A stretch of DNA of 64,000 nucleotides from Thermococcus barossii (GTDB taxonomy: Archaea > Methanobacteriota_B > Thermococci > Thermococcales > Thermococcaceae). Each line of letters starts with the position of its first letter. Position 1 is the stretch's first letter. Under the pieces are notes generated by a model. It had not been told where the DNA came from. It did no database searches and was given only the letters and a program-made list of their open reading frames with translations. The translations under genes were made by a program, and so were the position numbers. Location: assembly GCF_002214465.1 (NCBI RefSeq), contig NZ_CP015101.1, positions 1,805,013 through 1,869,012 on the forward strand. Direction: 5' to 3'. Below, in pieces: positions 38,042 to 41,579 of the stretch.

Positions 38042-39232
38042 ATGGCAAAGGTGGTAGTTGACGCTCAGGCGGCGAGAGCCATAGGAAAGGGCGCGATGAT
38101 AGTCTTCAAGAAGGGCGTCGTGAGAACGGAGGGTGAGTTCGAGCCTGGAGATATAGTTGAGGTCTACACCCGCGGGGGCAAGTTCCTTGGAAAGGGCTTC
38201 GTGAACCCGAACTCCAACATCATGATTCGCCTTGTCACCAAGGACCGCGAGACGGAGATAAACAAGGAGCTCTTCCGCGAGAGGATTAGGAAGGCCAACG
38301 AGTATAGGAAGAAGGTTCTCGGCTACGATAGGGCCTACCGCATGGTCTACGGCGAGGCCGACTACCTTCCGGGCCTCATAGTTGACCGCTTCAACGAGAT
38401 AGCATCGCTCCAGATATCGAGCGTCGGGATGGAGAGGTTCAAGCTCGACGTTGCCGAGGCCATAATGGAGGCCGAGCCGGAGATAGAGACCGTCTTCGAG
38501 AAGAACACCGGGCGCTCGAGGAGGAGGGAAGGATTGCCAGAGATAGAGCGCGTTCTCCTCGGAAAGGAGAAGTATCGCACGATAATCGAGGAGGGAAGGG
38601 CAAAGTTCATCGTTGACATGCGCGGCCAGAAGACGGGCTTCTTCCTCGACCAGAGGGAGAACAGGATAGCCCTTGAGAAGTACGTCAAGCCGGGGATGAG
38701 GGTTCTTGATGTTTTCACATACACAGGTGGCTTCGCCATTCACGCCGCCGTCGCCGGGGCGGAAGAGGTCGTGGCCGTTGACAAGTCCCCCTGGGCAATC
38801 AACATGGTGAAGGAGAACGCCAAGCTCAACGGCGTTGAGGACAGGATGAAGTACATAGTGGGTTCGGCCTTCCCTGTCATGGAGGAGATGATAAAGCGCG
38901 GCGAGAAGTTTGACATCGTCATCCTCGATCCCCCCGCCTTCGTCCAGCACGAGAAGGACCTAAAGCGGGGCCTTCGCGCTTACTTCAACGTGAACTACGC
39001 CGGCTTACAGCTTGTCAGAGAGGGTGGAATACTCGTGACCGCCTCCTGCTCCCAGCACGTGGACATGCAGGCCTTCAAGGACATGGTTATTGCAGCGGCG
39101 GCCAAGGCCGGGAAGTTCCTTAAGATGCTTGAGCCCTATAGGACTCAGGCGCCGGACCACCCGATACTCATGGCCTCGAAGGACACGGAGTACCTCAAGG
39201 CGCTCTTCCTCTACGTGGAGGATATGAAGTAG
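38042..39232 (+). CDS. SAM-dependent rRNA cytosine methyltransferase with PUA domain (RlmI-like)
   Basis: A 396-residue methyltransferase. Residues 1-70 form a PUA RNA-binding domain (AARAIGKGAMIVFKKGVVRT). A central domain carries YGEADYLPGLIVDRF. The Rossmann domain has motif I VLDVFTYTGGFAIHAA (about 222-237), ILDPPAF for motif IV, and the catalytic cysteine in VTASCSQH. This set belongs to the RlmI/RlmK class, which makes 5-methylcytosine in large-subunit rRNA. The gene is followed within three bases by a structured RNA-like stretch. Confidence 0.88.
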   Translation: MAKVVVDAQAARAIGKGAMIVFKKGVVRTEGEFEPGDIVEVYTRGGKFLGKGFVNPNSNIMIRLVTKDRETEINKELFRERIRKANEYRKKVLGYDRAYRMVYGEADYLPGLIVDRFNEIASLQISSVGMERFKLDVAEAIMEAEPEIETVFEKNTGRSRRREGLPEIERVLLGKEKYRTIIEEGRAKFIVDMRGQKTGFFLDQRENRIALEKYVKPGMRVLDVFTYTGGFAIHAAVAGAEEVVAVDKSPWAINMVKENAKLNGVEDRMKYIVGSAFPVMEEMIKRGEKFDIVILDPPAFVQHEKDLKRGLRAYFNVNYAGLQLVREGGILVTASCSQHVDMQAFKDMVIAAAAKAGKFLKMLEPYRTQAPDHPILMASKDTEYLKALFLYVEDMK

Positions 39233-39300
39233 GGACGATGAGGAGAAAGCACCTCCTCTGATTCCGGCGTGAGTGATGAGACGCCCACGGTCCGAGTCCC
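39232..39300 (+). ncRNA. Candidate small structured RNA (C/D-box-like)
   Basis: A 69-base stretch directly after the methyltransferase stop is closed by GGGAC (39232-39236) and GTCCC (39296-39300). It contains the hairpins GAGGAG/CTCCTC (39240-39245, 39253-39258) and GGCGT/ACGCC (39266-39270, 39281-39285). It also contains C'-like TGATGA (39274-39279), D'-like CTGA (39258-39261), a C-like CGATGA with one mismatch (39236-39241) and a D-like CCGA (39292-39295). The 12 bases between C' and D fit an archaeal 2'-O-methylation guide. The other spacings are not ideal, so another kind of structured RNA is possible. Confidence 0.35.
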
Positions 39301-39360: not shown

Positions 39361-39424
39361 TTGATGCTACGGTTGGAAATTGAAAATTCTACGAAAAAAA
39401 AAACGGAACTAATTCAAACTTGTA

Positions 39425-39486
39425 ATTGGAAAAGTTTTTAAGGATTTTGACGTACATATGGTGATTATCTCTGGGGGTGTGTGTCT
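39425..39486 (+). promoter_or_regulatory. Promoter and ribosome binding site of the cysteine-rich exported protein gene
   Basis: TTGGAAAAGTTTTTAAGG at 39426-39443 is a strong BRE/TATA element, set in a very A+T-rich stretch that includes a run of ten A at about 39394-39403. The predicted transcription start is near 39467. GGGGGTG at 39473-39479 is the ribosome binding site before ATG 39487. The gene therefore has its own, apparently strong, promoter. Confidence 0.55.
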
Positions 39487-40476
39487 ATGGATGGTTGGGT
39501 CCGGAAGGTTGGTGCTCTGCTTTTGCTTGCTATGCTGTTGAGTCTCCAGTTGGGGACTGTCCAGGAGACCAAGGCTTTAACTGCCAACAATTCTAGCGTA
39601 ACATTCCGAAGGACTGTGGTTGCCTGGTATGATGATACTGGTAAGCTTCAGATGAACGTCACGTGGGTGAATAAGACCATTGACTTCGCGAACTTGACTA
39701 ATGCCTCCTGTGCATGCCACAACTCAAGCTCCTGCAGTGCCTCAAACTTGACTGCAAACTTCAACGTTTCAGTGGTTACGCTTTACAACATGACGAGAAA
39801 GCACGAGCAGTTGTTGTTCTTTGGCATTAGCTTTTATAACAGCACGTTTAACTACACGATGTACGCGCTCGTTTATAAGGCCGAGAGGAGTCAGTACAAC
39901 TTTACGTTAATCACGAGAATATTTACTGACCCGAAGACTGGCGAGTACCGGGTTTTCCTTACTGGAATGAACATCGCGCCAAACGATGAGGATAGGGCAT
40001 TGCCTGTTGGGGATACGATTATTACTGCTGACAACTTGACTCTCTCGGAGTACTACTGGACTCTGAACAAGGTTCTCATGAAGCTCCGCAGGGGTGATGA
40101 GACGAACTGGATTTGGGGCAGGAGTGCTTACGAGTTAAGGCACCTCTCACACCTCGTGAAACTCAAACTACCAGAATACAACCAAGAAAAAGCAAGAGGA
40201 ATTAATCTAATCTTGGACAGTGAGTATCTCTTGTATGCTCCAAATTTGGGCTTGTTTGTTATAAAGATTTACTGTGGGGATCCAGTAATGCCAATAGCCT
40301 ATGTCTACGTAGCAGCATACGGTGCACTAATTGCAATTGTTGCAGAGTGTGGGACAGTTATTGGGTGCATCGCTGGTTCGTTGGGTACAGTAGCAGCTAC
40401 AAGAGGCTTGTGTGGTTATTGGAAAGTATGTCTAACAATAGGTGGGTTTTATACACTGTCTTGTACCTATGCATAG
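39487..40476 (+). CDS. Exported protein with Cys/Gly-rich hydrophobic C terminus (halocin-like precursor candidate)
   Basis: A 329-residue protein that I could not assign to a named family. A signal peptide covers about residues 1-32 (KVGALLLLAMLLSLQLGTV). Residues 33-255 are rich in Asn, Thr and Ser with about a dozen N-x-S/T sequons and three cysteines (75, 77, 83). The last 70 residues change character: hydrophobic, Gly/Ala rich, with six cysteines at 263, 288, 294, 309, 315 and 326 (CGTVIGCIAGSLG, then GLCGYWKVCLTIGG). A soluble exported front part plus a cysteine-rich hydrophobic C-terminal peptide is the plan of the halocin C8 precursor. Codon use is looser and A+T richer than in neighbouring genes. 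GTG 39481 is an alternative start. Confidence 0.6.
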   Translation: MDGWVRKVGALLLLAMLLSLQLGTVQETKALTANNSSVTFRRTVVAWYDDTGKLQMNVTWVNKTIDFANLTNASCACHNSSSCSASNLTANFNVSVVTLYNMTRKHEQLLFFGISFYNSTFNYTMYALVYKAERSQYNFTLITRIFTDPKTGEYRVFLTGMNIAPNDEDRALPVGDTIITADNLTLSEYYWTLNKVLMKLRRGDETNWIWGRSAYELRHLSHLVKLKLPEYNQEKARGINLILDSEYLLYAPNLGLFVIKIYCGDPVMPIAYVYVAAYGALIAIVAECGTVIGCIAGSLGTVAATRGLCGYWKVCLTIGGFYTLSCTYA

Positions 40477-40546: not shown

Positions 40547-40846
40547 ATGAGCATCTGGGGTTGGATTGCTTTGGTGGCTTTCATAGTCATGGCAGTTGAG
40601 GGTATCTCTGGTAGGGGTATAAGGGAAAGTCGTAGTAAATTGGTAAGGATGTGTTACACAGTCAGTTACTCCTTAGTGATGATAATTGTTATGATCGGAG
40701 TACTGATTGGTTTTGAGGTTATAAGTAAAAATTCTCTAGTGATCTGGATTATGCCAGTATCCGCAATATTAGCATTAATCTTGACCTTTGTCGGGATAAG
40801 TATCGACAACAAAAAAACGAGCTTCAACGAAAAGGCATTTCACTGA
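40547..40846 (+). CDS. Small three-helix membrane protein, possible immunity protein
   Basis: A 99-residue protein with three predicted helices (about 3-20, 38-60 and 65-87) and short charged connections (SGRGIRESRSKLVR). GGAGGGG precedes the ATG. It lies 70 bases after the cysteine-rich exported protein gene, shares its A+T-rich composition, and is the only partner gene in the island. Small multi-helix membrane proteins beside peptide-antibiotic genes often give immunity, so that is a reasonable guess. No sequence motif supports it directly. Its 3' end overlaps the opposite methyltransferase gene by 23 bases. Confidence 0.65.
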   Translation: MSIWGWIALVAFIVMAVEGISGRGIRESRSKLVRMCYTVSYSLVMIIVMIGVLIGFEVISKNSLVIWIMPVSAILALILTFVGISIDNKKTSFNEKAFH

Positions 40847-41579
40847 AAATCAAACTGTGCCTCCACCTCGTTCCGGCCTTAAAGCGTACGTCCCTGACGG
40901 AGTAGCCCAGTTCCTTTCCCTTCTCTTCCACGGCCTCTATCAGCGGCCCCTTGTCGGGAAGGAAGAGGGCCACCCTTCCGCCCGGCTTTAAATAGTCCAG
41001 CGCCTCCTCGATGAGCCTCACTGAAAAGCCCTCGCCGTGTTTCCCTCCACCGAGGCCTTCAAGCTCGGTCAGAACGCCCTTCGTCGGCTCCTCGTAGTAC
41101 GGGGGAGCCGAGAAGATAACTTCGAACCTCTCCCCCTCCGGGACTACACCGTGGATTATCCCGCCGTTGCTTTTGATTAGCCTGACTCTGGCATTGTTCC
41201 TCTCGATGTTCTTCCTCGCGTACTCAAAGAACTCCCCGTCGAGCTCCGTCGCGGTGACGTCGCAGTTGAAGAGCTTCGCCGCCATGAGTGCCATCAGTGC
41301 AGTATGCCCCGTCCCTATCTCCAGAACCCTCTCACCGCCCCTGAGGAAGGTCTTGAGAAAGATGTAACGCGAAACCGGGGTGGTGACAAGCCCGCGTGGG
41401 TGGTACTCTATGTCCAGTCCAAAAACGGCCTTTGCTATCGCTCTGTTGTAGAGTATCCTCGCTTCCCTGTTCGAGAAGTCGAGCCTGCCGCGTTCATCAA
41501 GGTATCGCTCAAGCTCGGGGAAGAGCTTAACGGCTTCCCTCACGGGCAGTCCGAGCTTTCCGTCCTTCCATGTGGGCAT
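40824..41579 (-). CDS. METTL16/RlmF-like SAM-dependent methyltransferase
   Basis: A 251-residue methyltransferase. The N-terminal part DFSNREARILYNRAIAKAVF and GLVTTPVSRYIFLKTFL are typical of RlmF/METTL16 relatives that make N6-methyladenine in RNA. The SAM-binding motif is VLEIGTGHTALMALMAA (about 84-100). The catalytic motif that usually reads NPPY/F is SAPPYY here. TRWRHSLIFS near the C terminus is also conserved. The RNA target in archaea is not certain. Its end overlaps the end of the small membrane protein gene. Confidence 0.82.
   Translation of the reverse strand: MPTWKDGKLGLPVREAVKLFPELERYLDERGRLDFSNREARILYNRAIAKAVFGLDIEYHPRGLVTTPVSRYIFLKTFLRGGERVLEIGTGHTALMALMAAKLFNCDVTATELDGEFFEYARKNIERNNARVRLIKSNGGIIHGVVPEGERFEVIFSAPPYYEEPTKGVLTELEGLGGGKHGEGFSVRLIEEALDYLKPGGRVALFLPDKGPLIEAVEEKGKELGYSVRDVRFKAGTRWRHSLIFSEMPFR

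Follow-up and report, generated by a model that had tools for sequence, protein, structure and literature searches.

A two-gene cassette of Thermococcus barossii as a candidate polymorphic archaeocin system with exchangeable cysteine-rich tails and tail-specific membrane genes

Introduction

What is the role of a gene for an exported protein with a hydrophobic, six-cysteine C-terminus, located between two methyltransferase genes of Thermococcus barossii, and could it encode a peptide toxin? The gene lies in the window, i.e. the whole stretch of 64,000 nucleotides analysed here, and a preliminary description of the sequence had taken it for a counterpart of halocin C8. To our knowledge, hardly any peptide antibiotics of hyperthermophiles have been characterised. 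The literature search retrieved no paper joining Thermococcales to halocin biology in this sense; the closest prior work, Makarova et al. 2019 (mBio), was outside its coverage, and is said to have enlarged the halocin C8 family widely, possibly including some of these proteins.

Halocin C8 itself is synthesised as a 283-aa Tat-exported precursor, ProC8, from which both HalI (immunity) and HalC8 (76 aa) are derived (PMC11509114).

Results

The precursor ORF (39487-40476, forward strand) is likely to start at ATG 39487, 7 nt downstream of a likely ribosome-binding site, GGGGGTG (39473-39479, forward strand), recognised by its sequence; an alternative start is the upstream GTG at 39481. Tail cysteines occupy residues 263, 288, 294, 309, 315 and 326 when ATG 39487 is counted as residue 1, and 265, 290, 296, 311, 317 and 328 when counted from GTG 39481. 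The coordinates, frame and cysteine positions of the preliminary description are correct, as is its outline of a signal peptide, a sequon-rich front and a hydrophobic six-cysteine tail; it missed the transition from head to tail near residue 246 and the second gene of the cassette at 40547-40846. The sequence-predicted Sec-type signal peptide (MDGWVRKVGALLLLAMLLSLQLGTVQETKA; 39487-39576, forward strand) extends to about residue 32 (GTG numbering) with a presumed cleavage position, and its counterpart in homologues, at the same position, is LIAAPQAMA. It is followed by a beta-rich head domain (39577-40218, forward strand; residues 33-246, GTG numbering) and by a variable, hydrophobic tail with the six cysteines, which is the predicted toxin peptide (40219-40473, forward strand; residues 247-331). 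The mature head contains 14 N-X-S/T sequons and the tail none.

The gene has a G+C content of 0.458, lower than that of the window (0.555) and of its two flanking genes (0.569 and 0.573), which bears out its earlier designation as A+T-rich. Among the 142 frames of at least 120 codons, it is the sole ORF in the window with six cysteines in its last 70 residues, and the runners-up are not hydrophobic. Pfam, NCBIfam and PADLOC gave no match above cut-off for either the precursor or the product of the second gene, P0002, and the tail resembles no known toxin in sequence.

The AlphaFold model of the head has a pLDDT mostly of 80-95 outside one loop, and its last predicted strand ends at the invariant D246. 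The head has no relatives in the PDB by sequence and no fold match at E ≤ 0.001. Together with the position of the last strand, this would leave the tail of the model free for cutting right after D246. The tail has a pLDDT of about 25-30 in the full-length model; the structure prediction of the tail alone, proposed earlier as a check, did return a fold (a strand, two hydrophobic helices and a hairpin), but at low confidence (mean pLDDT 65). Such a predicted fold with six cysteines suggests a disulfide-stabilised, membrane-active peptide.

The gene had been said to possess its own promoter, and a BRE/TATA-like element, GGAAAAGTTTTTAAGG (39428-39443, forward strand), is indeed conserved upstream of homologues, as GAAAAGTTTATATA or AAAAGTTTTTAAGG. 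A further conserved element, AACTTGTAA (39417-39425, forward strand), lies just 5' of the TATA box in most homologues. A palindrome, TGACCAACTGGTCA, is found between the TATA box and the start codon in L040, L052, L054, L056 and other loci and is absent from the leader in the window; this palindrome of head-gene leaders is possibly an operator for a shared regulator.

P0002 (40547-40846, forward strand) is a 99-aa protein with three predicted TM segments, encoded by a gene with a G+C content of 0.393 as compared to 0.57 in both flanking genes. The two-gene cassette is an insertion at a fixed site between methyltransferase genes. The left flank (38042-39232, forward strand) is a PUA-domain, RlmI-like RNA methyltransferase (PF10672, PF17785) that is 91-97% identical in relatives, and the right flank (40824-41579, reverse strand) is a Methyltransf_10-like RNA methyltransferase (PF05971); the earlier reading of both neighbours as methyltransferases is thus confirmed by Pfam, as RNA-methyltransferase-like. 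The C/D-box sRNA sR43 (39233-39297, forward strand; Rfam RF01128, E 2e-16, 71.4 bits with a gathering threshold of 45) immediately precedes the cassette, whose other end falls within the final codons of the methyltransferase gene on the right. That gene is present in 59 of the 61 genomes searched, its homologues align to residue 245-250 of 251, and its last codons come from the inserted DNA. In about a dozen Thermococcus genomes the site is empty, the flanking methyltransferase genes being ∼80-110 bp apart, and the C/D-box sRNA sits in this gap in relatives.

The same gap holds other inserts elsewhere, e.g. a gene for a 457-aa ATPase-like protein in G069 (L187). Many cassettes (L036-L081, downstream flanks) adjoin the same few housekeeping genes, the recurrent neighbours being an RsmC-like methyltransferase (MSHYYSEEP), a Taw3/Tyw3-like gene (MFLYTKNFDEQKA) and a tRNA synthetase, and this recurrence suggests preferred insertion sites.

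The head was found in 29 of 94 Thermococcaceae genomes, with up to seven matches in each and many decayed copies; it was not found outside this family in the phylum sample (29/115 genomes overall), nor was there a match in IMG/VR or plasmids. The 32 homologous heads are 59-85% identical to that of the window. Most of these alignments stop at residue 246-249, while the homologous frames run on into other tails. Plain BLAST clustering joined unrelated tails via their common cysteines and was discarded; clustering that ignored Cys-Cys matches gave 18 groups, or ∼14 once obvious subtypes were combined. Tail length is 58-119 residues, shrunken copies excepted, and nearly all tails are hydrophobic. 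They contain 6, 8, 10, 12, 16 or 20 cysteines, an even number in intact members of every family. Odd numbers are confined to altered or cut tails, namely L068 (seven cysteines, contig edge), L077 (contig end) and L051 (truncated, pseudogene-like), those of L075, L076 and L080 being due to a tail cut-off placed after a cysteine.

The tail type of the window has two further members only, L077 (73% identical) and a more divergent one in L044, where each of the six cysteines is matched. Five of five are kept in L077, whose tail ends with the contig; a free-standing tail at L077 was ruled out, the locus being cut by the contig end. Conservation of the cysteines among homologues, an expectation of the preliminary description, holds within a tail type, but between types the whole tail is replaced. 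When tail types were placed on the head tree, 19 changes were needed (minimum 12, shuffled mean 23.0), which indicates that tails hop between heads. The precursor family is modular, and its tails have been swapped.

The postulated kinship with halocin C8 applies to sister loci rather than to the tail in the window. Tails were scanned one by one against TIGR04449 (curated cut-off 24 bits), and five other tail types of the same head passed it, with 24.2, 25.5, 46.0, 46.6 and 49.4 bits. The search of the window's tail, proposed earlier, failed: neither the protein nor its tail matched TIGR04449 at E ≤ 10, no protein of the genome did so at E ≤ 1, and profile-profile comparison of this tail with the TIGR04449-type tails revealed no similarity (hhalign probability 0.2%). 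The counterpart claim stands only as far as the window has an exported, cysteine-rich precursor and its sister tails are of the halocin C8 type.

TIGR04449 also led to a second head, head B (about 180 aa), which has no similarity to the first. Its loci (L128, L129, L130, L132 and L133-L144) carry halocin-C8-like or other cysteine-bearing tails followed by TM genes, and several copies adjoin a phosphorylase-like gene. L043 and L128 have different heads, and their halocin-C8-like tails are 42% identical (E 1e-14) and their TM proteins 33% identical (E 4e-6); judged by these similarities, one putative tail-immunity pair is common to both heads.

Every tail is directly followed by a small multi-TM gene, ∼10-120 nt away in nearly all loci. 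The downstream TM genes were clustered independently of the tails, and their families follow tail type. All 67 same-tail locus pairs have a common downstream family, as against 42 of 1014 different-tail pairs, all of these 42 lying between subtypes of two tail families. In a permutation test of tail against TM family, none of 5000 shuffles reached 67, the best giving 19. The TM genes thus co-vary with the tails, and P0002 is predicted to be the cognate immunity protein; it is only 23% identical over the alignment to its partner in L077.

Immunity-like genes also occur as orphans. At the same chromosomal site of G040 (L165), the same promoter leads directly into a P0002 homologue (75% identical), the precursor being absent; this may be regarded as a natural trace of a toxin that was lost while its protection stayed. 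The dN/dS of P0002 against this orphan is ∼0.45, indicating only moderate constraint. Tandem type-6 and type-3 immunity-like genes without a precursor are present at this site in G019 (L195), a row of immunity-like genes follows a shrunken 20-cysteine toxin in G025 (L197), and secondary immunity-like genes without cognate toxin were recorded in L037, L059, L063, L064 and L078. This pattern fits what cells exposed to the toxins of neighbours would keep.

A NagP match of P0002 (E 8e-5) was rejected as partial, limited to TM segments and far below the NagP cut-off. Weak P0002 matches at L198-L200 were dropped; L198 and L199 are a LysO-like transporter beside an aminotransferase gene.

Discussion

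The cassette is very probably a polymorphic secreted archaeocin, i.e. two adjacent genes, one for a precursor whose toxin tail can be cleaved off and one for a membrane immunity protein specific to that tail. We infer disulfides, cleavage, a membrane target, killing and protection, in the following form. The signal peptide would export the precursor, and the glycosylatable, beta-rich head would fold outside the cell, bearing the hydrophobic, disulfide-bonded C-terminal peptide. A protease would cleave the precursor close to where the final strand of the head ends, ahead of or around D246, and the released peptide of roughly 80-85 residues would insert into the membranes of related cells; multi-TM immunity proteins are in keeping with such a site of toxin action. 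P0002, in the membrane of the producer, would block that one tail type. The head would thus be a reusable delivery part, while tail and immunity gene would move as one unit.

The cassette encodes neither a protease nor a transporter dedicated to it and has no proven cleavage motif, and the processor is likely to be a subtilisin-like extracellular protease by analogy with a haloarchaeal precursor-protease system (PMC12893001). In that HapP/halolysin system, a secreted precursor gives an active antimicrobial part after extracellular proteolysis, but there the activity resides in an N-terminal helical part, and the protein is a different one; cognate immunity and tail swapping are not described in the accessible part of that paper.

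The preliminary description, following halocin C8, had assigned immunity to the front part of the precursor. A one-gene system of this type, with the head conferring immunity, the tail acting as toxin and the TM gene only aiding export or processing, draws on the cutting of ProC8 into HalI and HalC8 (PMC11509114) and on the TIGR04449 tails borne by related heads. It is nevertheless improbable, as one head serves ∼14 unrelated tails, whereas the TM gene is tail-specific, and as TM genes persist without precursors, which is unexpected of a processing helper. Immunity residing in the head is likewise disfavoured, the head being constant whatever the tail. Since it is common to all tails, the head probably functions in export or processing, rather than in immunity as in halocin C8.

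The secreted archaeocin proposed here resembles halocin C8 in its exported precursor with a hydrophobic, cysteine-rich C-terminal peptide and in the TIGR04449 tails of sister loci with the same head type. It differs in having a tail outside TIGR04449, an unrelated sequon-rich head, many tail families and a separate, tail-specific predicted membrane immunity gene. Export also differs: halocin C8 is exported by Tat, whereas the window precursor has a Sec-type signal with no twin-arginine motif in its MDGWVRKVGALLLL, a stretch where most homologues have MNWRK. The arrangement also resembles bacterial CDI/Rhs-type polymorphic toxins, which likewise have a constant N-terminal part, a swappable C-terminal part, an adjoining candidate immunity gene, orphan immunity arrays and remnants of degraded copies; however, these use large delivery proteins with enzyme domains, as compared to a secreted precursor of ∼330 aa with peptide-like, cysteine-rich tails.

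Another possibility is antigenic or receptor variation, with a surface protein whose cysteine-rich tail anchors it or recognises self and non-self, and with the TM genes encoding its binding partners. A precedent exists in VARTIG (Makarova et al. 2021, PMC8416519), a hypervariable surface system of Thermococcales whose C-termini recombine and whose membrane genes co-vary, and for which self/non-self recognition is among the ideas proposed. The present family shares the recombining, hypervariable C-termini and the co-varying membrane genes, and its exported, sequon-rich head would also fit a surface protein. This reading is nonetheless unlikely: the window protein reaches Big_4 at E 0.1 only, which is below cut-off, no Ig family is above the Pfam cut-off in 36 head-family members, and there is no large arCOG07710-type protein. 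Unlike VARTIG, the tails are cysteine-rich and hydrophobic, several being halocin C8 domains, whose family includes demonstrated antimicrobials, and orphan arrays of partner genes are better explained by immunity. A thioether-linked (sactipeptide- or lanthipeptide-like) RiPP in place of a disulfide peptide is hardly credible, for although cysteine-rich hydrophobic cores are generally known to be common among RiPPs, the loci examined contain no recognisable gene for a modification enzyme, the core is joined to a large exported folded domain, and the even cysteine numbers in all tail families point to pairing.

We lean towards the broader view that this is a hitherto undescribed polymorphic archaeocin system, with at least 14 even-cysteine toxin families on one sequon-rich head, most of them, including that of the window, outside known antimicrobial families, and each with a membrane immunity gene, often in orphan arrays. 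It would tie halocin C8 to the logic of polymorphic toxins, and seems to be a scarcely explored means of chemical warfare among hyperthermophiles. The ∼14 candidate peptide toxins, each with its matching immunity gene, are genetically testable and are expected to be stable near 80-95 °C; the toxin-immunity pairs might also serve as plasmid-maintenance or selection markers in Thermococcus.

Truncated or frameshifted precursor copies were observed at L043, L044, L059, L062, L070, L074, L080 and L081, often beside intact ones, and may form a reservoir for tail recombination.
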